Of a stretch of DNA of 64,000 nt, positions 3,569-59,849 are shown one piece after another. The position numbers and the translations under genes were made by a program. This stretch comes from Methanospirillum lacunae (GTDB taxonomy: Archaea; Halobacteriota; Methanomicrobia; Methanomicrobiales; Methanospirillaceae): positions 62,001-126,000 of the forward strand of contig NZ_QGMY01000008.1 of NCBI RefSeq assembly GCF_003173355.1, written 5' to 3'. The notes below the pieces were generated by a model. That model was given only the letters and a program-made list of their open reading frames with translations. It had not been told where the DNA came from and did no database searches. The stretch's first letter is position 1. Each line of letters starts with the position of its first letter.

Positions 3569-4342
3569 TCAACCCTTTTTTGCTATCAGAATCATCCGTT
3601 TCGATTCGCTGTCCAGCAGTTTACCCTTCCAGTCACTATAGATATTCACCACTACAAGTCCCTCATTTTTAAAAATCCTGATGATCTCATTTGGGTTATA
3701 GAGCCGGAGAAAGAACGGAGTATCTCTCCGTTTCCCATCCCTCATAATGATACGAGAATTATAGAGCCTTCCAGTTACCGTGTCAAAACGGTTTCTGTCT
3801 ATCATCAGGTCTGAATTCTTCTCCCTTACTGCAAACCGTGGATAATCCTTTAAAAAAACATCCCGGTTCAGAATATCAAGGCATACCATACCACCGGGGC
3901 GGAGGGAAGAAGCAATATTCCTGATCACGAGCTCATTCTCCTCGTCTGAAAAATATCCAAACGAACTGAACAGATGAATAACACAATCATAGGCTTCAGG
4001 TTCACAGTATTTCCTGGAATCAAAGCAGAGATATTTTACCCGGACACCTCTCTTATCTGCATCATCCCGGCCAATTGAGAGAAATTCCTGGCTTTGGTCG
4101 ATACCTGTGACATCATGCCCGAATTCTGCAAGCCGGTTGGCATGTCTTCCGTGTCCACAGGCGAGATCAAGGATCTTTTTATTAGATTCAAGGCAGAGTT
4201 TCTGTATGAGAAATGCGACTTCCTCATCGGTATACTCATCTTTTATCATATCTCCGTAAAAATAGAGATAATCCTCTGCATCAAAGACTGATGCAGGATC
4301 GCAGCTCTGATTTGTCTTATCCTGAGCATCCGGGCAGTTCAT
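3569..4342 (-). CDS. class I SAM-dependent methyltransferase coupled to radical SAM gene
   Basis: This 257-residue protein has motif I ILDLACGHGRHANRLA near residue 57, an acidic residue in VTGIDQS, and LRPGG at the fourth strand. The ATG at 4342 is chosen because it forms a 4-base ATGA overlap with the stop of the upstream radical SAM-SBP fusion gene; a GTG 12 bases further up is possible. The overlap implies that both proteins are made together and act in the same pathway. The fold is shared with small-molecule methyltransferases; the acceptor cannot be deduced. It belongs to a different subgroup from the two methyltransferases encoded just before it on the other strand. Confidence 0.85.
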   Translation of the reverse strand: MNCPDAQDKTNQSCDPASVFDAEDYLYFYGDMIKDEYTDEEVAFLIQKLCLESNKKILDLACGHGRHANRLAEFGHDVTGIDQSQEFLSIGRDDADKRGVRVKYLCFDSRKYCEPEAYDCVIHLFSSFGYFSDEENELVIRNIASSLRPGGMVCLDILNRDVFLKDYPRFAVREKNSDLMIDRNRFDTVTGRLYNSRIIMRDGKRRDTPFFLRLYNPNEIIRIFKNEGLVVVNIYSDWKGKLLDSESKRMILIAKKG

Positions 4343-6051
4343 GTAGATCCACACACTTTAGCTTCAGAAACAAATGTTTCCAGTCTGTTTTTTTCTTCTT
4401 CGAGTGAATAATTGATGATATCTGGATGAAGAATATTAGCCACATCCATCAGGCTGATAAGCCAGCCGAGATCGCCTGACGTAAATTCACTATTCATTGT
4501 AAACACATTTCTTTCAACAGTTGCCTTGCATGAGATACCAAGGTCTCTACAGGTTGTGAGAAACTCATCAATTGGCGGGGCGAAATGTCCGGATATCAGA
4601 ATAATATCCGGATTAAGGTTGTTGAGTTCTTTAGCTGTGTACTCTGCATGAGACCTCTCATGGAAATTTCCCTGTATATTCAGACTCATCCCTCCTGCCA
4701 TCTCCACGAGGGTGTTTCCCAGTTTTGTTGCATACATAGGTGAGAGAGGATGACAGAATACAGCATATACCCGGGGTTTATTTGCGTTTTGCACCTTTTC
4801 TGCGATCTCATTTGCGATTTTGGTTGCATACGTGATAAGTTTCTCACCAGTCTCCTGCCTGCCAGAGAGATCTGAGAGATACCTGGTCATGGCTGTGAAC
4901 GTCTCAAGAGAATCATGCTGCTGCTGCAGGTCTGCGAGATATCCATTACCGATGACGAGGTTACAGAGATTATCAATTTCTGCCTCATCAGTGATACCAA
5001 GAACATTCAAAAATGATGCGATAAATTTGGCACCCATAATCGAGCGGTATCCACCAAGAACCGGAGCGTCGTCAGTAGGAATTGGTATGATATCCCCTTT
5101 GTGGAAATATGTGTACCCACAGGAACAGATCCCGTCTGGCTGCATTGAAAGGATACGTGCAGCCATCGGACCAAAAAACACCCTGTGAATGATTGTTTTC
5201 CCACAGTTCGGGCATCGGGAATCAAGTTCGCTCGTTGCAGGTGTATTAAAGAGATAGACATGGTCCACTATCTTCCGAAGTGTTTTACATATGGCTTCTG
5301 CCTGAGTCTTGTCTGGTTGAAAATGATTGAGATCTTCTGTAACAGCAAAAAATCTCATAACCTGAAATGGAATTGAGGGAGAGATCTGTTTGATCCTCTT
5401 TGCAGCCCCGCAGATTTCATCTTCCCTTCCAACGAGATACATGGTAGAGACCTCGATAAATACACCTGCATCATACAGGATTTGGAGATTTCGAAAGACA
5501 GGTTCTGCTGATACAGCCCCGCACTCCCGGTATCTCTCATCAGAAGATCCTTTCAGTCCGATATTAACAAAATCAAGATACGGAATCATCTGTCTCAAGG
5601 TCTCTTCGGTCATATATCCGTTACTTGAGCACCCGACTAAAAATCCCTCTTTCTTTGCAGTCTTTGCGAGTCGCAGGAAGGTGGGAAGTGAGACTGTTGG
5701 TTCATTAAGACAGAACGTAATACCCCTGCAGGAGCTCTCCCTTGCAATTGAAAGAATATCCTCCGGGGTATGTGGTGTTAAGACCTTTTGGAGTGTTCCT
5801 TTACGGGTTGTCTGAAATTCTGAAATGCATCCGTCACAGGCAAAGTTACATCCTATAGTGCTTACCAGCAGGAAGATGCTATTTGGGTAAAAGTGAAGCA
5901 TCGGAATAGACTCACTTGAAACCGGGTAAATATTGAGATACGCATCAGGATAATTCTCAGTGATAACTCCTGCTTCGTTCCGGTACATTCTGCAGTACCC
6001 GGAGATTCCTTCTGCGATATCACAATACCGCTCACAATAATTGCAGATCAT
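4339..6051 (-). CDS. radical SAM protein fused to an SBP-like domain
   Basis: The 570-residue protein begins with a Cys-rich lead (C3, C6, C10, C20) and a radical SAM core whose CX3CX2C cluster motif is C68-C72-C75 (CNFACDGC). This and the later CPNC (280-283) and CSC (309-311) pairs resemble the PflA-like radical SAM protein of the AmmeMemoRadiSam group. From about residue 330 to the end there is a second domain with SBP-like features: a helical stretch, KPRVYAVFC, NTLVEMAGG, LNNLNPDIILISGH and ANILHPDII, like the second lobe of PF01497 proteins in this window. No signal peptide is present, so it is probably cytoplasmic. It is the first gene of a two-gene operon with a methyltransferase. The fusion ties radical SAM chemistry to whatever ligand the SBP lobe binds (inference). 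Confidence 0.85.
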   Translation of the reverse strand: MICNYCERYCDIAEGISGYCRMYRNEAGVITENYPDAYLNIYPVSSESIPMLHFYPNSIFLLVSTIGCNFACDGCISEFQTTRKGTLQKVLTPHTPEDILSIARESSCRGITFCLNEPTVSLPTFLRLAKTAKKEGFLVGCSSNGYMTEETLRQMIPYLDFVNIGLKGSSDERYRECGAVSAEPVFRNLQILYDAGVFIEVSTMYLVGREDEICGAAKRIKQISPSIPFQVMRFFAVTEDLNHFQPDKTQAEAICKTLRKIVDHVYLFNTPATSELDSRCPNCGKTIIHRVFFGPMAARILSMQPDGICSCGYTYFHKGDIIPIPTDDAPVLGGYRSIMGAKFIASFLNVLGITDEAEIDNLCNLVIGNGYLADLQQQHDSLETFTAMTRYLSDLSGRQETGEKLITYATKIANEIAEKVQNANKPRVYAVFCHPLSPMYATKLGNTLVEMAGGMSLNIQGNFHERSHAEYTAKELNNLNPDIILISGHFAPPIDEFLTTCRDLGISCKATVERNVFTMNSEFTSGDLGWLISLMDVANILHPDIINYSLEEEKNRLETFVSEAKVCGST

Positions 6052-9637: not shown

Positions 9638-11107
9638 TCACGAACCGTTATCCTGATAAGGTACTTTTTCCTCATAAACCGGTCTTCGTTTCAGGATATA
9701 TGATGCACATGCTCCAGGAATGCATAAAACTCCGGTAATTATTACAACCACTGCAGATGCCCATGTAAGAAGTCCGAGATTAGCCTGCAATATCGGCCCA
9801 AAATATCCTGCAGAATGAAGAACACCTGTCATCAACATTGCAGCTAACGTAACCCCGCAGGCACTGCCTAAACATCCAGCAGTTGTAGAGACACTGGATG
9901 CCAGAGCCATCTGTTCTTTTGGGAGAGCATTCATTACATCAATGCTCTTCTGACTTTGAAAGAAACTAACTCCAATACTGCGAAATACCATCAAAATCAG
10001 GATTAACCCTATGTTTATCGCAACAAATGCATAACCGGTACACAAACTCGTAAGAGATACTATCAGAAGCCCGGATCCGGCCAGGTATCTCCAGTTATAT
10101 CGGTCGATTATCCATCCTGTAGTACTCGAGGCAAATATCTGAACAATTGGGGTTATCATAAGAATAATACCAATCTCAAAGGAGTTCATCCCGGTAACAC
10201 CCTCAAAATAAAATGGTATTAGTGTAATAAGTGAAAAGTTAGAGATTCCAAGGAGCAGACTACTTACAACCGGCACCATATATCTCCCGTTCTTGAATAT
10301 CATCAGATCTATGAGCGGTTTTTTGCACCTGCTTTCATGAAACAGGAATATTGCAATTGACAATAGGAATGAGCCAATAGAAAGAAAAATAAAATACGAG
10401 TCATGAGTTCCAGATTGCACTGCTCCAAATATTACAAAGAACAGGATGATGAGTGAACTCAGGCTTACCGCTCCTATCCAATCAAAATATGGGTCTTGAG
10501 TTATTTTCTCTGGAATTTTCAGGAACTTCAGATTAGCGATAAAGAGGACAATTCCAATAGGGACATTGACGAAAAAGATATATTTCCAGCCTAAAACATC
10601 ATTAATAATACCTCCAAATGCCGGTCCCACGAGAGAGAAGATGGAAAAAATAGATCCGCTAAACCCAAGTGCTCTTCCGATCTCGCCTGATGGAAATACT
10701 CTGAATATGATGACACTACTGATTCCTGCAACCATTGAGGAACCTAATCCCTGGACAATACGAAAGAGTATCAATTGATTGAGATCTTCAGAGAGACCAC
10801 AGCATAGTGAGCTTAATGTGAAGACAACCGATCCAATCGTAAATAGTTTGCAGACCCCCAAAAACTCAGACAATTTTCCACATATGATAAACAGACTGGT
10901 CATTGTTATCAGATACGCTGTTACAACCCATTGTGAGTCAGCGAGGGTTGAATGAAAAACAGTGGTAATTGTAGGGAGAGCAATATTGACCATACTACTG
11001 TCAAGACTGGCCATAATTGAATCAATTAAAACGATAACTAATATGATATACCGGTGTTGATATGCAAAATCTGATACTGAAATGTGAGATGAAGGTGATA
11101 GATTCAT
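9638..11107 (-). CDS. MFS transporter of the DHA2 (EmrB/QacA) family
   Basis: This 489-residue membrane protein has about 14 hydrophobic segments, typical of the DHA2 drug:H+ antiporter family. Visible hallmarks are the N-terminal DSIMASLDSSMVNIALPTI (family motif D1), the motif A region after the second segment, and an RIVQGLGSSM segment near residue 115. The family exports drugs, dyes, siderophores or other small amphiphiles. A role in exporting a product of the methyltransferases nearby is possible but unsupported by coupling. The start ATG at 11107 is preceded by AGGTTACT. The cytoplasmic N-terminus is about 20 residues long. Confidence 0.88.
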   Translation of the reverse strand: MNLSPSSHISVSDFAYQHRYIILVIVLIDSIMASLDSSMVNIALPTITTVFHSTLADSQWVVTAYLITMTSLFIICGKLSEFLGVCKLFTIGSVVFTLSSLCCGLSEDLNQLILFRIVQGLGSSMVAGISSVIIFRVFPSGEIGRALGFSGSIFSIFSLVGPAFGGIINDVLGWKYIFFVNVPIGIVLFIANLKFLKIPEKITQDPYFDWIGAVSLSSLIILFFVIFGAVQSGTHDSYFIFLSIGSFLLSIAIFLFHESRCKKPLIDLMIFKNGRYMVPVVSSLLLGISNFSLITLIPFYFEGVTGMNSFEIGIILMITPIVQIFASSTTGWIIDRYNWRYLAGSGLLIVSLTSLCTGYAFVAINIGLILILMVFRSIGVSFFQSQKSIDVMNALPKEQMALASSVSTTAGCLGSACGVTLAAMLMTGVLHSAGYFGPILQANLGLLTWASAVVVIITGVLCIPGACASYILKRRPVYEEKVPYQDNGS

Positions 11108-24541: not shown

Positions 24542-25600
24542 ATGTCTCAAAGAAATTTAAAAGCAAATAACACTTTAATGCTCATTGCATTCGTACTTAT
24601 TACGTTTACAATTTCCGTGAGTATTGTATCAGCAGCAGGTGGAACACATACAATTACTGATATGACCGGTAATACTGTAACAGTTCCTGATGATATTAAT
24701 AAAGTCGTCACATTCAATGCAATCCCTGTATTAAACAGTTACATCATTGCTCTTGGAAAAGGTGACACTATTATGAATAGCCTCTCCTCAATGGCAAACA
24801 CACCATACACGAAATATCAGACTATTTTAGCACCACAGATAGAAAGTGGAGTAGATTTAGGAAAAGCTGCTCCTAATGCTGAGCAGGTCATGGCCATGAA
24901 TCCTGATGTAGTCATAACGTCTGAAAAATCCACTGTAGATGCGTTAAACAAAACGACCATCCCGGTTGTCTTTGTCCCAAGTACAATGGGGGATAATGCG
25001 CAGAATGAAAAAGTGATGACAGTTCTGGGTAAGGTATTTAACCAGGAATCTAAAGCTGATGAATACAATACGTTTAGTGATGAGGTTGCTGCCAACTTAA
25101 AGTCAAAACTTGGGACGATTTCTGATGATCAGAAACCAAAAGTTCTGAACATGTGGGCACCAACACTCGCGGTATTTAATTCCAGTGGATGGGTTGTTCC
25201 TGCTGGTGGTAAGGATGCTTTTGATTCATCCAGTATTAAGGGTGGGTATGGTGGCGTTACAGTCAGATACCAGGGAAATGTTGAAGAAGTCCAAAAATGG
25301 AATCCAGATGTTATTGTTGTAAGAGACCCAACTGACATTCCGTATCTAAAAGGAAATTCACAGTTCAGCAACATCAATGCAGTAAAGAATGATAAGATAT
25401 ATGTCTGTCCTGCCGGGCTCATGACGTGGGTAGGAGGAGCAGAAGTTCCACTCATGGCAGAATGGATAGCAACCAAGTTACATCCGGACAAAGTTTCTGA
25501 ATCTGATCTGGTAAAAGACACCAAAGAATTATACAAGAAGTTCTTTGCATATGATTTAACAGACGCTCAGGCAAAGAACATAATTAATGGAACCCCCTAA
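24542..25600 (+). CDS. FepB/BtuF-type substrate-binding protein
   Basis: The 352-residue protein has a signal peptide (core about residues 10-28, ending IVSAA) and the classic start of the mature chain, TITDMTGNTVTVPDDINKVV. Lobe one carries NPDVVITSE and TTIPVVFVPS, and lobe two has GVTVRYQGNVEEVQKWNPDV and CPAGLMTWVGG. The family binds metal chelates or corrinoids. The ATG at 24542 follows GGAGAATAAA; an in-frame TTG 12 bases upstream is less likely. A CX5CX2C radical SAM gene follows on the same strand after 240 bases. A degenerate copy of its 3' half lies at 52014-52513. There is no permease nearby. Confidence 0.88.
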   Translation: MSQRNLKANNTLMLIAFVLITFTISVSIVSAAGGTHTITDMTGNTVTVPDDINKVVTFNAIPVLNSYIIALGKGDTIMNSLSSMANTPYTKYQTILAPQIESGVDLGKAAPNAEQVMAMNPDVVITSEKSTVDALNKTTIPVVFVPSTMGDNAQNEKVMTVLGKVFNQESKADEYNTFSDEVAANLKSKLGTISDDQKPKVLNMWAPTLAVFNSSGWVVPAGGKDAFDSSSIKGGYGGVTVRYQGNVEEVQKWNPDVIVVRDPTDIPYLKGNSQFSNINAVKNDKIYVCPAGLMTWVGGAEVPLMAEWIATKLHPDKVSESDLVKDTKELYKKFFAYDLTDAQAKNIINGTP

Positions 25601-25840
25601 TTGGGTTATTCATTCATTTTTAATCTGTTTTTTCAAGTTGATAGTGTGATAATTGTTGAAATAAATTGCACATTGAATATTTCCCCCTTGTTTTTCCTGA
25701 ACAAAAGACACAAGGATGAGATAATGAACAGGCGATTGCTACCCGAATAGAACCTGGAGACCAGAACAAATCCATTCTCTGTGGCCATTTCTAATCTTTG
25801 AAACATATTTTACTAAAGTGTTCAAAAGAGGAGATTAAAA

Positions 25841-26842
25841 TTGTTTGAGAAACTACTAGAAAAAGCAAGATCTGGTGAGATTACAAAAGAACTTGCTCTA
25901 GAGATCCTTACTAAATCTAAAAAACCTGAAAACGCCCTAAAACTTTTTGAAATGGCATCGAAGGTTCGTAATGAAGTCATAGGGCCAAACCTATTGTGGG
26001 CTGGAGGAGGAATTCGTGCAACTGTACCATGTAAGATAGAGCCCAGATGTAAGTATTGTTCATTTTATTTGCGAGGTGAATTTAAACTCGAAACCATCAT
26101 TTCATGTGTAAAAATTATGGAAGAAATAGGAATGAGAGAGATTCATCTGGTTGGAGGAGCGAATCTCCAGGGATATGATGAAGAAGTTCTGGAATTAATC
26201 AAGGCAATCAGATCAGTTTCAAATATAGCAATAGGATTAAATTTTGGTTGTTCATTATCAGAAGATACCATTCGTCTTCTCAAAGGAATGAATATCTTTG
26301 GTATCACAATCGCTATTGAAACAATAAATGAAGAACTCTTTAAAGCATCAAAACCTGGTGATAGCCTCAAACTGAAAAAAGAAATGTTTACAATCTGTGA
26401 ACGGGTAGGTATGCCAATTCATGCTATGCTTTTTGTTGGATTGGGAGGAACTCTTGAAGATAGGATAAATCTAATTTATTTTGTAAAGCAATTTTCTCAC
26501 CTCTCAACACTTTCATTCTCCAGATTCTTTCCTTTTTCAGGAACACCATTTCAAGATCATCAACGATGTTCACCATGGGATGTTGCAACAACTATCGCTG
26601 TTGCACGACTGGTGTTACCAAAAATTAATCTATCAATAGCAGCAGGCAATACTGTTGATGACATACCTCTTTGGTATATTGCCGGAGGTGGGAATCAAAT
26701 TCAAGGGGTTTATACCACAGAGAAGAATTTTCCACTCGGACCAGGAGAAATTATGGTACCTGTTGATGAGGATCATATAATTATAAACCGCATGCCAATA
26801 GTGCAGCATTATCTTGAGGATATGGATGTTTCAATCAGGTAA
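25841..26842 (+). CDS. radical SAM protein with HmdB/HcgA-like CX5CX2C motif
   Basis: This 333-residue protein resembles the BioB/HydE/HmdB branch of radical SAM enzymes. The cluster motif is C64-X5-C70-X2-C73 (CKIEPRCKYC), the unusual spacing known from HmdB (HcgA), which acts in synthesis of the iron-guanylylpyridinol cofactor of [Fe]-hydrogenase, instead of the usual CX3CX2C. Other features are the glycine-rich MREIHLVGGANLQG stretch, SFSRFFPFSGTPFQDHQRC, and DDIPLWYIAGGGNQIQG near the end. The start is TTG at 25841 after AGAGGAG. No hmd or other hcg genes are visible. It is paired with an SBP, exactly like the paralogue at 26972-28018. The product is unknown. Confidence 0.82.
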   Translation: MFEKLLEKARSGEITKELALEILTKSKKPENALKLFEMASKVRNEVIGPNLLWAGGGIRATVPCKIEPRCKYCSFYLRGEFKLETIISCVKIMEEIGMREIHLVGGANLQGYDEEVLELIKAIRSVSNIAIGLNFGCSLSEDTIRLLKGMNIFGITIAIETINEELFKASKPGDSLKLKKEMFTICERVGMPIHAMLFVGLGGTLEDRINLIYFVKQFSHLSTLSFSRFFPFSGTPFQDHQRCSPWDVATTIAVARLVLPKINLSIAAGNTVDDIPLWYIAGGGNQIQGVYTTEKNFPLGPGEIMVPVDEDHIIINRMPIVQHYLEDMDVSIR

Positions 26843-26971
26843 TGAGCAATAATATTTTAATGTCTCATCGCAGATTAAAAATTCAGAAAAATAAAATTAC
26901 AGTGAGCTCCCTGGCACAAAATACAATTTCAAAGTATTTTATAAAGGAAAAAAATAATCGATATAAGAGAA

Positions 26972-28018
26972 TTAATACCTGATATCAGTTATTCCAACTT
27001 CTGCAAGCATTGCTCCTGCCACTGGTATGGTATTACAATACTCCATTCTGTTTTCATACTTCACAGCAGTGTGAAGGAACCAGGGTTTTTTGTATGAAGG
27101 AACCCGAGATATGTGGATGCCTCCTATCCTGTTTCCACCTCCGGCATTCACCCAAACCGGAATGTCATCATAACTCCATCCTGCTGCAGGTCCAATATCG
27201 ATATTTCGCAAAACCAACCGCATAATTGCAATTATTCTTGCTCCCTCGGTCGTAGAACAACGGGGGTGGTTCTCAAGTGGAGTTCCCTTATTTGGGAAGA
27301 AACGACTCACATATACACTTTCGAGGTTTTCATACTGCTTTACATGGAATATGAAATCTGCATAATCCTGATATCTGGATGGCTCTATATTTAGCCCTGC
27401 TAACATACCAGTCCCAAGACCAAATCCTAAATCGCTGATCTGTTGTGCAAGGGCCTTTTTCTTTTCAAGACTGTCCCCTGCTTTGAATTTAGAAAATAAC
27501 TTGGGATTAATAACCTCAAAAGACGAACCAACTTTAGTAACTCCAAGATCCTTCAAAGCCACTAAGGAGGCAAGAGAAAGACCTGCCCCAACATTTACAG
27601 TAATCTCGGATTTAGATATCTTTCTAATCTCCTCAACTATTGAAACCACATCACTTCCATCACTCGTGAGGGTTGTACCTCCACTTAAATGAAAATTGGT
27701 TATTCCATGTTCATCCAGATATCTGACTCCCGTCAGGATTTCATCAATTGTTAATGCGGTTGATGGTTTTACCCAATATGGACAGTATGCACAAAGAGGA
27801 TCAAGGGTACAGGGGAGGATTGTAGCGATTCCCCCACTCCACTGAAAACTTCTTCCCTTCTCACTGTCTCTCACATGGGCTGCAGTAATAAATAATTGTT
27901 GAGCTTTTGCGAAATTCTCTGTTTCCTTAAAAAGAAAAACTGCTTCATCAGATGTAATTTCATCTGATTCAGCCTGCTTTAAAATTGATTCGAATGAGAA
28001 GTTCATACTCATTCTCAT
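26972..28018 (-). CDS. radical SAM protein with HmdB/HcgA-like CX5CX2C motif, paralogue
   Basis: The 348-residue protein has the cluster motif C70-X5-C76-X2-C79 (CTLDPLCAYC), identical in spacing to its neighbour at 25841-26842, and shares VYVSRFFPNKGTPLENHPRC and DDIPVWVNAGGGNRIGG. The two genes converge with 129 bases between their stops. Its first ATG (28018) overlaps the stop of the SBP gene by 4 bases, so the SBP and this enzyme are translated from one message. In-frame ATGs at 28012 and 28006 are alternatives. The coupling links an extracellular binding protein with a cytoplasmic radical SAM enzyme. The substrate is unknown, and a role in a metal-ligand or pyridinol-like compound is only inference. 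Confidence 0.83.
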   Translation of the reverse strand: MRMSMNFSFESILKQAESDEITSDEAVFLFKETENFAKAQQLFITAAHVRDSEKGRSFQWSGGIATILPCTLDPLCAYCPYWVKPSTALTIDEILTGVRYLDEHGITNFHLSGGTTLTSDGSDVVSIVEEIRKISKSEITVNVGAGLSLASLVALKDLGVTKVGSSFEVINPKLFSKFKAGDSLEKKKALAQQISDLGFGLGTGMLAGLNIEPSRYQDYADFIFHVKQYENLESVYVSRFFPNKGTPLENHPRCSTTEGARIIAIMRLVLRNIDIGPAAGWSYDDIPVWVNAGGGNRIGGIHISRVPSYKKPWFLHTAVKYENRMEYCNTIPVAGAMLAEVGITDIRY

Positions 28019-29073
28019 GAATTTTTCATGGCTATCTGGTCATCAGTAAGATCAGAGACTTTGTAGAATTTTTGGAAGAAATTCCTCGTTTCCTTTGGAA
28101 TATCAAATGGCATCTGATCCGGGTATAACGTTTCAGTTACCCACATAAGACCGATAATTGATGTAATTCCGTCAGGGAATTCATATTTAGGTACGCAATA
28201 TACCCGGTCATTTTTCATGGCTGTAGTATCTTTCCATACCGGGTCATTCATAATGTCATTTGTTACATTGGTATTTTGAGCGATGATAACATCTGGATTC
28301 CATTTGATGATGTCTTCTACAGACACCTCAATTCCTTCGTTTGTCTTATCACCACTCAAGGTTACTGCATCTGCATATGGAATACCGCCAGCATCTCTCA
28401 CAATTGAGGACATAATTGTTGCAGATCCTGGAACCGTCTTAGAGGTTGCTCCTGTATAGAATACCCTTAGTTTTTTATCGTCTGGTATCTTTGAACTTGC
28501 ATCTTTTACCCGGTTTATGGTATCTTTCCAATAATCAGCGAGTTCATTCCCTTCTTTTTCATTTCCAACAACCTTACCCATAAATCTGAATGATGGCTCA
28601 TAATCTTCAATTGTATCTTTTTTGACCGTAACCACCGGAATGTTGAAAGTGTCCTGTTCTTTATCAACATTTGGATCCTTTGTCATTGAAACAATTACAT
28701 CTGGCTTAAGTGAGATCACCTGTTCATTATTTAGACCCTTAAAATAAACTCCTGTAACTGGTAAACTTCCGAATAATTTCTGGCCTTCTTTTGACATAAG
28801 ATAGGTTCTTGATTTTGAAACCATGTCTATGCTGGCTAGTTTTTCGGGAGCTAATCGCCATGCCATATATGTCGGGATAGGATGAAGGCAGGATATATTT
28901 GTGATTGGATTGGGGATTGTAACATCTCTTCCGGCTAGATCAGTAACGATTTGCGTCCCTGTCTGACCTGATGATGTTGATGCAGCAAACGCACTGGGAA
29001 TACTCAGTAATCCTAGAATTAAGAGTACTGCAATCAAAGACTTACATGACTGATTGAAATTAAAATACCTCAT
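28015..29073 (-). CDS. FepB/BtuF-type substrate-binding protein coupled to radical SAM gene
   Basis: This 352-residue protein has a signal peptide (core about residues 12-28, ending PSAFAA) and the mature start TQIVTDLAGRDVTIPNPITNI. Lobe one contains KPDVIVSMTKD and FNIPVVTV, and lobe two VEDIIKWNPDVIIAQN. The residues in the cleft differ from the paralogues: where others have a Trp-centred loop, it has PKYEFPDGITSIIG. A good ribosome site AGAGGTAG precedes the ATG. The 4-base overlap with the downstream CX5CX2C radical SAM gene makes this a two-gene operon. An 8-bp inverted repeat lies upstream at 29190-29221. Confidence 0.87.
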   Translation of the reverse strand: MRYFNFNQSCKSLIAVLLILGLLSIPSAFAASTSSGQTGTQIVTDLAGRDVTIPNPITNISCLHPIPTYMAWRLAPEKLASIDMVSKSRTYLMSKEGQKLFGSLPVTGVYFKGLNNEQVISLKPDVIVSMTKDPNVDKEQDTFNIPVVTVKKDTIEDYEPSFRFMGKVVGNEKEGNELADYWKDTINRVKDASSKIPDDKKLRVFYTGATSKTVPGSATIMSSIVRDAGGIPYADAVTLSGDKTNEGIEVSVEDIIKWNPDVIIAQNTNVTNDIMNDPVWKDTTAMKNDRVYCVPKYEFPDGITSIIGLMWVTETLYPDQMPFDIPKETRNFFQKFYKVSDLTDDQIAMKNS

Positions 29074-45076: not shown

Positions 45077-45691
45077 ATGATATCACAAATTGCAGTAATG
45101 CATACCTATGACGGAATAACAACTACACTTACAGATCCTGGTGTTATTACAATCTATTCCAAGGAGTCATCATATTGGATACCAGTCAGGGTTATGCCTT
45201 TTTATCTTGACCAAAATAAGGGTATGATTCAGATTCGTGAGGAAGCAAGAAGACTCGTATCATTCCTTGGAGATTGTAAAATTTTTGTTGCAAAGGCTAT
45301 AAAAGGTATCGTATTTTATGAACTGGAAAAGGCCCATTTTGATGTATGGGAGATTTCAGGAAGGCCTCATGAATTTCTAGATCAGGTCTTGGATGAGGAA
45401 GAGAAGGATATATTGCAACAATCAAAGAAAACAGATATTCCATCTCCTGTTGAGATCTCCCCAGGACAGTATTATCTGTCTCTTATAGAGATGCATACAA
45501 TAAGACCTGATGTAAGTAGTAAGCAGATACTTCTAAAGTTTATACAAACCGGTGCATATCAAAAACTTGAGGTGGTGTGTTCTCATGTTCCACCGTGGAT
45601 CACTCATGAGTTGAAATCCGGATGTTTTTCCATGCAGGCCGAAAATTTCGGACCAGAAGAGGTACGATTGGTACTAACGAAGGATATGTAA
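45077..45691 (+). CDS. AnfO-like nitrogenase accessory-family protein
   Basis: The 204-residue protein matches the AnfO family (Fe-only nitrogenase accessory protein): an N-terminal IAVMHTYDGITTTLTDPGVI strand pair, RLVSFLGDCKIFVAKAIKGIVFYELE near residue 60-90, a variable acidic linker, then SSKQILLKFIQTGAYQKLEVVCSHVPPWI. The LGDCKIFVA and HVPPW signatures are the basis of the call. AnfO is needed for Fe-nitrogenase activity in bacteria, by an unclear mechanism. No nitrogenase gene is in the window. It lies 130 bases upstream of the GTPase-ATPase-DUF364 operon, so it may work with those proteins in metal delivery. The ATG follows AGAGGAAAT. Confidence 0.8.
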   Translation: MISQIAVMHTYDGITTTLTDPGVITIYSKESSYWIPVRVMPFYLDQNKGMIQIREEARRLVSFLGDCKIFVAKAIKGIVFYELEKAHFDVWEISGRPHEFLDQVLDEEEKDILQQSKKTDIPSPVEISPGQYYLSLIEMHTIRPDVSSKQILLKFIQTGAYQKLEVVCSHVPPWITHELKSGCFSMQAENFGPEEVRLVLTKDM

Positions 45692-45821: not shown

Positions 45822-46514
45822 ATGAAATTAATTACCGTAGCGGGGCCTCCGTCTTCGGGAAAAACCTCTGTAATTATCAAAACAATAATTGCCCTTGGTT
45901 TACCGGAAAAGAGTGTAGGTGTTGTAAAATTTGACTCACTTACCTCTTTTGATCACCAGCGTTATAATGAAAATAAAATCCCGAATCAAACAACATTTTC
46001 TGGAAAAATATGCCCTGATCATCATTTTGTTAGTAACATCGAAGGGGCAGTTGAATGGGGAATGAAGAAAAATTTCTCGATTCTCGTATCAGAAAGTGCA
46101 GGTCTATGTAACAGATGCTCCCCGCATGTGTATGGTATTCTCTCGATTTGTGTCATAGATAACCTCTCCGGTGTTAATACTCCGAGAAAAATAGGTCCGA
46201 TGCTGAAGTATGCTGACATTGTTGTAGTCACCAAAGGAGATATTGTTTCCCAGGCAGAACGCGAGGTCTTTGCCTTTAATATTCGAGAGGTCAATGCGAA
46301 AGCAACTGTATTATTTGTAAACGGGATAACCGGGCAGGGGGCGTTTATTCTTTCTCGATATTGGCAGGATGCACTTGATATCAAAACGCTTCGTGAACGA
46401 AAGATCAGGTTTACCATGCCTGCTGCAATTTGTTCATATTGTACCGGTGAGATCCATATCGGAGAGAGATACCAGATGGGAATGGTTAAACGGATGGTGT
46501 TTGACGACGCATGA
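45822..46514 (+). CDS. HypB/CobW-like GTPase with conserved cysteine pairs
   Basis: This 230-residue P-loop protein has GPPSSGKTS (residues 8-16), a switch region near the conserved ESAGLCNRC, and TKGD as the likely base-recognition motif. This is the layout of the metal-chaperone GTPases HypB, UreG and CobW. Six cysteines are shared with the paralogue at 57937: C64 in CPDHH, C96 and C99 in CNRC, C110, and C204 and C207 in CSYC near the end. They are candidates for Ni, Co or Fe binding. The gene overlaps the downstream ATPase gene by 4 bases (ATGA). No hydrogenase or urease genes are close by. Confidence 0.85.
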   Translation: MKLITVAGPPSSGKTSVIIKTIIALGLPEKSVGVVKFDSLTSFDHQRYNENKIPNQTTFSGKICPDHHFVSNIEGAVEWGMKKNFSILVSESAGLCNRCSPHVYGILSICVIDNLSGVNTPRKIGPMLKYADIVVVTKGDIVSQAEREVFAFNIREVNAKATVLFVNGITGQGAFILSRYWQDALDIKTLRERKIRFTMPAAICSYCTGEIHIGERYQMGMVKRMVFDDA

Positions 46515-47545
46515 GTGATTCTGATTTTGAAACTGAGATCTCAACGGTACCTATTGGTGATATTCTTCGCCGGTATCCTCTGGCAGTAGATTATCTGGCA
46601 AATATACGGCTTGACAGGGTTGATGAAACAAAAACATTTCCTGAAATATTACAAACTGTTGATGAAGATATCCTGGCAGAATTCGGGCTTGATCGTGGAG
46701 AAGTTATATCCCATTTTCGTGCGTTTCTTGAGGCATTTTCCAGAAAAAGTGATACAATTGAAACGATCTCTTCAATAACAATTCTTGGTGGAAATAATAA
46801 ACTGGGAATGCCTGAAACAGTGGAACTGACGATAACAGCCGGGGAGGTTGTAAGTATTGTAGGTCCTACCGGGGCGGGTAAAAGCCGGCTGCTTGAGGAT
46901 ATTGAATGTCTTGCTCAAAGGGATACTCCAACGACAAGGCAGATACTTATCAATGGAGCGGTTCCTGATTTTACGAAGAGATTTTCCACAGGAGGAAAAC
47001 TGGTAGCCCAGCTCTCGCAGAACATGAATTTTGTCATGGATTTAACTGTTCAGGAATTTCTCGAGATGCATGCTAAGAGCCGGATGATATCAGGATCCTC
47101 TGAGATCGTGGAAAAATGTTTTGCAGTAGCCAATTCCCTTGCAGGTGAGAAATTCACATTAGACACGAAAGTTACACAGTTATCAGGTGGTCAGTCACGA
47201 TCGCTGATGATCGCCGACACCGCTCTATTAAGTTCATCCCCGATTATCCTCATTGATGAACTTGAAAATGCGGGAATTGACAGGCGGGAAGCAATCAAAC
47301 TCCTCGTGGGCAATGAAAAGATAGTCCTCATGTCGACACACGATCCTCTTCTGGCCCTTCGTGCTGATAAACGAATTGTCATCAAAAATGGCGGTATTGC
47401 AAAAGTTATTGAAACAGCACCTGATGAGGAACTGACACTCCTGAAGATTGAAGCAATTGATTCCATCCTTCTTGATATCCGCAATCAGCTTCGTGGAGGA
47501 GGAGTTATTGCAAATGAGAGCATTCCCGAATTTATGGAGAATTAA
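46511..47545 (+). CDS. DUF1858-like domain fused to orphan ABC ATPase
   Basis: The 344-residue protein begins with a DUF1858/ScdA_N-like helical domain (VPIGDILRRYPLAVDYLAN, residues 8-75), often an iron-sulfur or metal context domain. An ABC ATPase domain follows: Walker A GPTGAGKSRL, a Q-loop in AQLSQNMNFV, the signature LSGGQSRSL, Walker B LIDELENAGI and the H-loop STHDPLL. The Walker B is unusual: DELENAG instead of DEPTxxLD. No permease is encoded nearby, so it is more likely a soluble motor or switch than a transporter part. It is translationally coupled to the GTPase, and the DUF364 gene follows by 3 bases. A paralogue without the DUF1858 part is at 57074. Confidence 0.84.
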   Translation: MSDSDFETEISTVPIGDILRRYPLAVDYLANIRLDRVDETKTFPEILQTVDEDILAEFGLDRGEVISHFRAFLEAFSRKSDTIETISSITILGGNNKLGMPETVELTITAGEVVSIVGPTGAGKSRLLEDIECLAQRDTPTTRQILINGAVPDFTKRFSTGGKLVAQLSQNMNFVMDLTVQEFLEMHAKSRMISGSSEIVEKCFAVANSLAGEKFTLDTKVTQLSGGQSRSLMIADTALLSSSPIILIDELENAGIDRREAIKLLVGNEKIVLMSTHDPLLALRADKRIVIKNGGIAKVIETAPDEELTLLKIEAIDSILLDIRNQLRGGGVIANESIPEFMEN

Positions 47546-47548
47546 ATT

Positions 47549-48355
47549 ATGATGAAATTATATGATGAATTAGTTGAAGGAATTCCAGATGATATTGTAG
47601 TAGATGATGTCATAGTTGGTGGAGGAGCGACATATGTTGAGGCAGATGGCGGTGTGGGCCTCTCAACATTCAGGGATTATTACAGTCAACGTGCTCCAAC
47701 ATTGACTGGAAATCTTATCGGAATGCCACTAAAAAAAGTTGCTGAATGCGTAAAATCCTGGAATTTCAGGGAAGCAGCAGTTGGTCATGCAGCACTTAAC
47801 GCCTACTATAACAACCCAACTACTGCTAAAAAGGCAGGAATTGATATTGCAGCATCGAAGAATGTCAATGATCAAATCAAAGGGCGACTTAAAGATCCAT
47901 TTATCAAATATCAGAATCTTGTAAAAGACAAGAAAGTCTGCGTTGTTGGGTATTCCCGGCTGCTTAATGAATTATTTGCTCCTGTTTGTGAGATGAGTGT
48001 TATTGAATGGGATGCACCATTGAGAAGTTATTCTGATACTGGGTATCCGCTTTCAGCATGTGAATACCTGCTGCCAGAGTGCGATTATGCATTTTTGACC
48101 GCATGTGCAATATCAGAAAAGAATATGCCCAGGCTTCTTGAGTTATCCAAGAATGCCACCGGAGTAATTATTACTGGTATGACTTCGACCCTGTCTTCAG
48201 TATTCTTTGATTATGGTGTGACTGATATTTCAGGCCATGTTGTTATCGACCCTGAAAGAGTCAAGCAGATTCATAAAGGATCTGAAAATGGATACTGTCT
48301 CTGTCAGGCTCCGGAAGCAATTACCAGGGTAGAATATCTTAAACCCGGAATGTAG
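47549..48355 (+). CDS. DUF364/DUF4213 putative heavy-metal chelation protein, paralogue
   Basis: This 268-residue protein has a DUF4213-like N-terminal part (VDDVIVGGGATYVEADGGVGLS, then KSWNFREAAVGHAALNAYYN, residues 20-90) and a DUF364 Rossmann part (KKVCVVGYSRLL, MSVIEWDA, then SACEYLLPECDYAFLTACA and FFDYGVTDISGHVV). Family members are putative heavy-metal chelation proteins. It differs from the copy at 7683 in lacking the GPTVPxSPVLFDCG stretch in the same form. It is the last gene of the GTPase/ATPase/DUF364 operon, 3 bases after the ATPase stop. The stop is TAG. Confidence 0.84.
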   Translation: MMKLYDELVEGIPDDIVVDDVIVGGGATYVEADGGVGLSTFRDYYSQRAPTLTGNLIGMPLKKVAECVKSWNFREAAVGHAALNAYYNNPTTAKKAGIDIAASKNVNDQIKGRLKDPFIKYQNLVKDKKVCVVGYSRLLNELFAPVCEMSVIEWDAPLRSYSDTGYPLSACEYLLPECDYAFLTACAISEKNMPRLLELSKNATGVIITGMTSTLSSVFFDYGVTDISGHVVIDPERVKQIHKGSENGYCLCQAPEAITRVEYLKPGM

Positions 48356-57940: not shown

Positions 57941-58620
57941 AATTCCATCCTCTTTACGTTTCCCATTTGATAGTCTCTTCCGATTCTGATTTCACCAAGG
58001 CAATAAGAACAGAGAGCAGCTGGCATCGCAAATCTGAGTGAACAATCATTTACAGTTATGGTATCCGGAGTATTCTTCATTTCATCTGCCAATGGAAGGA
58101 CTCCCTGACCAGTCAGGCCGTTGATTTTTATAACTTTTGCAGATGGATTTGCTCTGCCGACTCTAAATGCGAAAACTTCCCGTTCAGCCTGAGAGACAAT
58201 ATCCCCTTTGGTTATAACAATCATATCAGAAAGTCTCAGCATAGGTCCAATTTTTTTCGGTGTATTAATCCCGCTGAGCGTATCAATAACGCATATGCCA
58301 AGGATGCCTCTAATGTGGGGAGAACACCTGTTACAGAGTCCCGCACTCTCAGTAATCAGAAGATCCAGATTCTCTTTCAGTCCCCAGGATACACATTCCT
58401 CAATATTTGAAACAAAATAGTGATCAGGACAGAGGTTTCCGGCAAGGCCTATATGTATTGGAACACCTGCTGCCTGGTATGTATCTTCATCTCCTGATGA
58501 GATACAGTCAAACTTTATTACACCAACTGAAATTCCTGCTTTTTTAAGTTCACGGATTGTATGAAGAATTACCGATGTTTTACCTGAAGAAGGAGGACCT
58601 GCAACAGTTACAAGTTTCAT
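57937..58620 (-). CDS. HypB/CobW-like GTPase with conserved cysteine pairs, paralogue
   Basis: The 227-residue protein matches the GTPase at 45822-46514: GPPSSGKTSVI, NLCPDHYFVSNIEE, ESAGLCNRCSPHIRG, TKGDIVSQAEREVFAF, and ALCSYCLGEIRIG. All six cysteines of that protein are conserved. It is the middle gene of a three-gene operon with 4-base overlaps at both ends (ATGA to the DUF1858-SBP, TTGA to the ATPase), so the three proteins are translated together. By family it would be a metal-delivery GTPase, with the metal unknown. Confidence 0.85.
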   Translation of the reverse strand: MKLVTVAGPPSSGKTSVILHTIRELKKAGISVGVIKFDCISSGDEDTYQAAGVPIHIGLAGNLCPDHYFVSNIEECVSWGLKENLDLLITESAGLCNRCSPHIRGILGICVIDTLSGINTPKKIGPMLRLSDMIVITKGDIVSQAEREVFAFRVGRANPSAKVIKINGLTGQGVLPLADEMKNTPDTITVNDCSLRFAMPAALCSYCLGEIRIGRDYQMGNVKRMEF

Positions 58621-59849
58621 GATGTTTTTCCATAAAACAACCGGGTAAATTCAGAAGATATTTGATCGATTTCTGCACCGATGTCATGAGTATTTATGTA
58701 ATCCCATCCAATCCAGTTGAATTTGGCGTCTGGATCCACACATGGTGGAACTCCTGTCATACTCGGAAATGCTGCATTACTAAATATAGATCCGGTTTTT
58801 TCTCCAGCTAAAAACGATATAAGGGGATCGAGTTCTGGTTGATGTTCTCTTTTTACAATCATCGTTACCGGACTGACAATTGGACCTTCTTCTGGCCAGA
58901 TAATTGAAACTTCTGAAGATTTCTCAGCCAATTTCGCAAAGAAAAGAGGAAGTATGGAAATGGGGGGGGCAGGGTGTCGTTTAAATTTCGCCGCCTTAAC
59001 CATTTCTGATGGATGTGAACCTTTTTGAACAGTCTTTGCAAATTGTCTTACTCCTTCAATGCCATATTCGGAGTATATTGTGAGAAGAACAGTCTCACAA
59101 AAAAAACCATCCTGGCCCCTGATTGTGAGAGAATTTTCATATTCTGGTTTTAAAAGATCACTCCATCGCTCTGGTACTTCAAGATCACCAAGCCGGGTGT
59201 GGTCAACCATAAGAACCTCAATGTTTGCACCAATAACTGAGTATTGATGTTCAGGATCCTGAAGATCAAGGTTTTTATATGGAGATCTCCCGTGTTCAAT
59301 GGGATCCATAAATAAGTTTCTTTTCCTGAACTTATCAAAAAAATTTCTGTAATAATATCCATTCAGTCCTGGAGAAATTACAATATCAGGCATTTGGTTT
59401 ATGTCTGTAAAATTTTTGACATAATCATAGTATGATAACTGATTATTTGCATTAGATTCAAGAAGATATGTAAACGGGGGATTATTATCATATGCTTTGG
59501 ATAAGAGGTCTGCAAATGCCATATCAAAGGGCACTTTGACCGGACAGGGGAGAAGAGCAAGAAAATTAATATCGTGTTGATCATAACCCCGTTCAACAAG
59601 AGTGGATGGTGTTATCGTCGATGGATCTGGTAGTTGTTCTTCAAGCAATTTGATAAATCCGGTTTTATCAATGTGATGCTGTTTTAAAAAAGCTCCCAGA
59701 TGAATTCCATATTCTGGTGATTCTTCATCAATCTCTATATTATAATGTCTGAATACTTTTCTGGTTTCCGGAAACCTCGTTAAAACCTCACATACTGGTA
59801 TGTTTGGAGTAATCCGAGTTTTTTCAGAGGAGGAAGGATGGTTTTTCAT
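58617..59849 (-). CDS. DUF1858-like domain fused to cytosolic solute-binding protein
   Basis: The 410-residue protein has no signal peptide. Residues about 10-70 (TPNIPVCEVLTRFPETRKVFRH, then LGAFLKQHHIDKTGFIKLLEEQL) form a DUF1858/DUF542-like helical domain. Residues 100-405 resemble a type 2 solute-binding protein of the Fe3+/thiamine kind: PVKVPFDMAFADLLSKAY, DIVISPGLNGYYY, ERWSDLLKPEYENSLTIRGQDG, and EEGPIVSPVTMIVKREHQPELD. Solute-binding folds without export signals are uncommon and suggest a cytoplasmic carrier for a metal or cofactor. It is the first gene of an operon with a GTPase and an orphan ABC ATPase. In the homologous operon at 45-48 kb the DUF1858 domain is attached to the ATPase instead. 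Confidence 0.82.
   Translation of the reverse strand: MKNHPSSSEKTRITPNIPVCEVLTRFPETRKVFRHYNIEIDEESPEYGIHLGAFLKQHHIDKTGFIKLLEEQLPDPSTITPSTLVERGYDQHDINFLALLPCPVKVPFDMAFADLLSKAYDNNPPFTYLLESNANNQLSYYDYVKNFTDINQMPDIVISPGLNGYYYRNFFDKFRKRNLFMDPIEHGRSPYKNLDLQDPEHQYSVIGANIEVLMVDHTRLGDLEVPERWSDLLKPEYENSLTIRGQDGFFCETVLLTIYSEYGIEGVRQFAKTVQKGSHPSEMVKAAKFKRHPAPPISILPLFFAKLAEKSSEVSIIWPEEGPIVSPVTMIVKREHQPELDPLISFLAGEKTGSIFSNAAFPSMTGVPPCVDPDAKFNWIGWDYINTHDIGAEIDQISSEFTRLFYGKTS

Follow-up and report, generated by a model that had tools for sequence, protein, structure and literature searches.

The question raised by this locus is what a radical SAM enzyme of the CX5CX2C type does beside a secreted binding protein (SBP), and why the pair should be present twice. 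In the window, that is, the whole stretch of 64,000 nucleotides of Methanospirillum lacunae DNA that was analysed, the open reading frames and the Pfam matches agree on two such cassettes, which converge between positions 24542 and 29073 as the preliminary description had read them. On the plus strand, SBP1 (24542..25600; ATG start, with GGAG upstream) is followed 240 bp downstream by rSAM1 (25841..26842), which starts with TTG behind a GAGGAG ribosome-binding site. Beyond a gap of 129 bp (26843..26971), rSAM2 (26972..28018) and SBP2 (28015..29073) lie on the minus strand and share the four bases ATGA (28015..28018, minus strand), in which the stop of SBP2 overlaps the start of rSAM2. The same 4-bp overlap is found in 12 other loci of the family, named clade A below. 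It had been suggested that the enzyme is translated with the binding protein; the overlap bears this out for the second cassette, whereas the 240-bp gap of the first leaves its genes uncoupled. Both SBPs belong to PF01497 (SBP1, 2.3e-18, 66.9 bits; SBP2, 1.1e-30, 107.3 bits; gathering cut-off 27.5), and both enzymes score above the cut-off of the Pfam model Radical_SAM, with the CX5CX2C spacing confirmed by the cluster motifs CKIEPRCKYC in rSAM1 (26030..26059, plus strand) and CTLDPLCAYC in rSAM2 (27782..27811, minus strand). The BATS domain exceeds its cut-off in rSAM1 only and not in rSAM2. Sigma-70 scans gave nothing above shuffles.

The most immediate explanation would be that these are true HmdB enzymes for FeGP cofactor synthesis which lie beside SBP genes by chance. 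HmdB is indeed the best NCBIfam match of both and has the CX5CX2C motif in common with them, but they score 123.5 and 125.1 bits against the equivalog cut-off of 320.9 (TIGR03957). Furthermore, true HmdB forms one clade in two trees (support 100/100), and the branch that splits clade A, together with a smaller clade B, from it is supported at 98/98 and 99/94; in both trees clades A and B also lie away from the CX3CX2C enzymes. The missing hmd partner noted in the preliminary description can be extended to the whole genome, which is 99.9% complete and contains neither an HMD-domain protein nor an HmdB above cut-off. The Hmd search covered part of the clade-A genomes, and among these only G007 has Hmd, with a separate true HmdB close to hmd. 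In close relatives carrying hmd, true HmdB adjoins hmd or hcg genes. Clade A is thus separate from true HmdB and its hosts are mostly without hmd. With an SBP pairing that is also far beyond chance (see below), the trees and the Hmd search already refute this explanation, and we give it practically no chance. On sequence grounds the window enzymes are placed in a sister family of HmdB, so that the earlier label "HmdB/HcgA-like" is right as kinship and wrong as identity. On the BioB model the enzymes score 60.7 and 56.4 bits with a CX5CX2C motif, against the CX3CX2C motif and more than 225 bits expected of BioB; a BioB-like CX3CX2C gene sits elsewhere (L003). Identity with HmdB, BioB, HydE or PylB was rejected on cut-offs, motif and trees. 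Clade A and HmdB have in common the invariant residues C70/C76/C79, N142 and E168, the nearly invariant K179, and R267, and clade A is set apart by R50, G55, K156 and D182.

The pairing is not peculiar to this genome. A pattern scan of contigs returned one locus only, and profile searches of whole genomes far more, namely 39 clade-A genes in 33 genomes of archaea and bacteria. The hosts are archaea of the phylum of the window and bacteria of the phylum of Acetobacterium, taken as samples and not as a census; in even samples a clade-A gene was present in 10 of 295 genomes of the former phylum and 7 of 398 of the latter. Same-strand importer genes lie within 5 kb of 36 of the 39 genes, the remainder being that of G770 (L174) and two on contigs shorter than 4 kb. 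An SBP or NikA gene is found within 250 bp of 29 genes, and 13 have the exact 4-bp overlap with an SBP gene, in both gene orders (SBP first in subclade A2 and in G1259, rSAM first in subclade A3). By comparison, we estimate from the 31 PF01497 SBPs in this 3.74-Mb genome that about 2% of genes would lie next to an SBP gene by chance, and no SBP pairing was seen for five clade-B relatives or seven true HmdB genes. The adjacency first noticed in the window is thus widely conserved in archaea and bacteria, and we consider the SBP-rSAM unit to be well supported. No description of it was found in the open-access literature. Clade B (L109-L113) is a second CX5CX2C group of five genes from one archaeal genus, with a CxMxxYCIYC-type motif, no importer alongside and no Hmd in the genomes concerned; it is left out of what is said here about importers.

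The two cassettes differ considerably, the enzymes being 33% and the SBPs 26-27% identical. A local tandem duplication was ruled out by this low identity and by their different subclades: rSAM1 groups with Acetobacterium-type proteins and one archaeal protein (A1), and rSAM2 with proteins of G007 and other archaea (A2). The partner SBPs follow the enzymes, with SBP1 in clade P1 (support 100/99) matching A1, SBP2 in clade P2 (100/100) matching A2, and P3 (100/99) matching A3; P1 and P2 each take in one unpaired lineage and P3 none. The two cassettes would then serve two different ligands. Since an A1 and an A2 enzyme are also encoded within 8 kb of each other in the bacterial genome G1118, both types can travel together.

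Three unrelated importer types are found at clade-A loci: FecCD-FecE of the FecBCD type in many, Nik-like importers in L102, L176 and L199, and an ECF importer in L103. The window itself showed no FecCD permease. Of the six in the genome, even the closest lies about 27 kb off, and no FecCD and FecE genes stand beside the window cassettes, while many relatives have both in the same operon. Recurrent neighbours of clade A include DUF364, which has been tied to metal transport (PMC2954201), MoeA-like proteins, O- and other methyltransferases, nitrogenase-like and CobN-like proteins, and a HypB-like GTPase with an ABC-type ATPase. In the window, genes for a HypB/UreG-like GTPase, an ABC-type ATPase and DUF364 lie at 45822..48355 on the plus strand, and the orthologous trio of the sister genome G007 is directly downstream of SBP2-rSAM2. 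At the G1336 locus the family stands among larC, cbiMNQO, larE, larB and nikABC-like genes, with LarB just under its cut-off, and in G341 NikBCDE-like genes are followed at the operon end by CfbE, which is above its cut-off; cfbDCB near the G869 operon is a weak link. The metal-related role proposed in the preliminary description is therefore backed by context (Nik-like importers, larBCE, cbiMNQO, cfbE, DUF364). Nickel markers occur in a minority of clade-A loci, and the MoeA-like, nitrogenase-like and CobN-like genes of other loci suggest tetrapyrroles or metals other than nickel. A reading of molybdate alone, prompted by a structural match to MolA and by the MoeA-like genes, was set aside, such genes being absent from most family operons. 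For the ECF importer of L103, haem import found no support, the MptD family not being mentioned in the LhaS paper. Divergent nitrogenase-like genes lie near the cassette in L173 (4777-7949), L177 (4016-7582), L182 (2171-5400) and L202 (4261-5466), and the component-1 proteins tested among them stay under the thresholds set for the known models of NifD/K, DPOR and CfbD. In L177, L180 and L183, archaeal CobN/BchH-like giants lie in the neighbourhood of the radical SAM and SBP genes of clade A.

The window is part of an island (contig C8, approximately 42-140 kb) which holds more than half of the 31 PF01497 SBPs of the genome and few FecCD permeases, along with MoeA-like and DUF364 genes, many small methyltransferases and a Nik/Opp-type importer. 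PflA-like radical SAM proteins with a CX3CX2C motif, each of about 570 residues, are encoded in the window (4339-6051) and in a further part of the island, L075 (11690-13414). The L075 copy, 16 bp after an SBP gene, has a C-terminal PF01497 domain above cut-off and so represents a radical SAM-SBP domain fusion, apparently cytosolic; in the window copy the PF01497 domain is visible only by alignment to L075. Just upstream of the GTPase/ATPase/DUF364 genes, at 45077-45691, is an AnfO-like gene (Fe-only nitrogenase accessory), with no nitrogenase noticed nearby. An SBP_bac_6-type protein without evident signal peptide (window 58617-59849; L076 3328-4449), whose gene is conserved beside GTPase/ABC ATPase genes in Acetobacterium, is possibly an intracellular ligand carrier. 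Among the island SBP genes, L074 (10791-14178) carries an HGD-D (2-hydroxyacyl-CoA dehydratase-like) pair with a BcrAD-type activator.

As for function, the predicted model of the radical SAM enzyme (pLDDT 68, modest confidence) resembles HydE, BioB and PylB, which act on small molecules. For the SBP2 model (pLDDT 81), the best structural counterparts are proteins that bind metals or metallophores, including MolA, YiuA with iron and CeuE with Ni-His, and these metal-chelate binders fit it better than BtuF or IsdE. HcgA, the nearest enzyme with a known product, turns a small compound present in cell extract into 6-carboxymethyl-5-methyl-4-hydroxy-2-pyridinol (PMC10100467). The model matches of the enzyme and SBP2, the HcgA chemistry and the residues common to HmdB, taken with the conserved pairing, the matching groups of enzyme and SBP and the importer and nickel genes around clade A, lead us to propose that the cassettes belong to uptake modules for small metal-organic complexes, in which each would serve to recognize and process its complex. 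Once the SBP had bound the complex outside the cell, an importer of the FecBCD type would take it in; such an importer is encoded elsewhere in this genome, whereas most relatives have it in the operon of the cassette. In the cytosol, the CX5CX2C enzyme would then convert the small organic ligand in a radical reaction, so that the complex becomes usable or the metal is freed. The ligand is presumably a metal complex and nickel the most likely metal. Action after import is favoured because the uptake operons have no conserved exporter and because the PF01497 fusion protein of L075 seems to be cytosolic. We put this proposal forward tentatively, at a little less than an even chance, since the product of HcgA is a chelator-like pyridinol, which speaks for synthesis over processing, and since no permease adjoins the cassettes in this genome and no importer is found near L174.

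The main rival of uptake and processing is that the radical SAM enzyme builds a small heteroaromatic chelator from a common metabolite, as HcgA does its pyridinol, and that the chelator is exported, binds a metal, probably nickel, and is returned as a complex by the SBP. The pair would then be a minimal metallophore system. The conserved residues common to clade A and HmdB fit such chemistry, the matching subclades of enzyme and SBP are what a metallophore and its receptor would give, and O-methyltransferase genes lie near the enzyme in L101, L102, L180 and L194. The lack of a conserved exporter in the operons counts against it, there being only scattered MFS genes (window 9638-11107; L175), and we regard it as possible, though on the whole doubtful. 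The enzyme could also modify the SBP itself before export, for which the 4-bp overlaps, suggestive of coupled translation, might be taken as a sign. This we think very improbable, as the nearest solved relatives take small molecules and the SBPs and S-components found beside the family are of unrelated types, with no obvious common target among them.

The identity of the ligand can be argued separately. A tetrapyrrole (F430-, corrinoid- or haem-like) might be imported and reworked, with nitrogenase-like reductases and CobN-like chelatases helping in some lineages. This would account for the cassettes of L173 and L177 having NifHDK-like genes as neighbours, for the nitrogenase-component genes of L182 and the NifD/K-family gene of L202, as well as for the CobN-like giants, CfbE in L102, cfbDCB near L178 and the BtuC-like permease scores in L099. 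Many operons are without nitrogenase-like, CobN-like or Cfb genes, however, the SBP2 fold fits metal-chelate binders better, and barrels of the BioB/HmdB type take small substrates, so that a tetrapyrrole appears unlikely. The role of the archaeal CobN-like proteins is itself unclear (PMC12583661).

The uptake of scarce nickel and related metals in anaerobes such as methanogens and acetogens is poorly known, and the family, linked as it is to importers in both archaea and bacteria, offers concrete genes and proteins for it. Its recognition also removes from FeGP cofactor synthesis a group of proteins for which HmdB and biotin synthase models had given the only matches. A broader generalization, which strikes us as conceivable rather than probable, is that the family represents a widespread one-enzyme class of metallophore or metal-cofactor uptake in anaerobic archaea and bacteria. 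In it, a small heteroaromatic nickel ligand would be built or remodelled by a radical SAM enzyme related to HcgA, and an SBP that co-evolves with the enzyme, and whose gene often overlaps with that of the enzyme, would recover the complex via any importer available. If this is true, it would give CX5CX2C enzymes a new function and methanogens and acetogens a candidate nickel ligand.

Among known systems, FecBCD-type metal-chelate operons, with SBPs such as MolA, YiuA and CeuE, have the PF01497 SBP in common with the cassettes, the FecCD permease and FecE ATPase in common with the relatives, and are matched in structure; to our knowledge, they are not known to include a radical SAM gene that overlaps with that of the SBP. 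Staphylopine (Cnt) and Nik nickel uptake are resembled by the NikA-like SBPs at L102 and L199, which score on nickel and staphylopine models, yet under the equivalog cut-offs, and a radical SAM gene is present where no opine synthesis genes were seen. The nickel-pincer nucleotide (Lar) and F430 (Cfb) pathways touch the family through larBCE in G1336 and CfbE in G341, whereas most members are far from these pathways, of which we know no clade-A radical SAM enzyme to be a member. The nitrogenase-like isethionate and methylthioalkane systems, whose radical SAM proteins are described as mutually alike only in the radical SAM motif, are set beside the family by description only. BioB, HydE and PylB have a similar fold and, in part, the BATS domain, but BioB and the other non-CX5 relatives tested carry CX3CX2C, and the window enzymes score under their cut-offs and form a separate branch. 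Closest is HcgA/HmdB, the FeGP pyridinol synthase, with which the family has the CX5CX2C motif, the BioB-like fold and several conserved residues in common, and from which it differs as a sister clade that scores far under the TIGR03957 cut-off, occurs mostly without hmd and is tied to importer operons.
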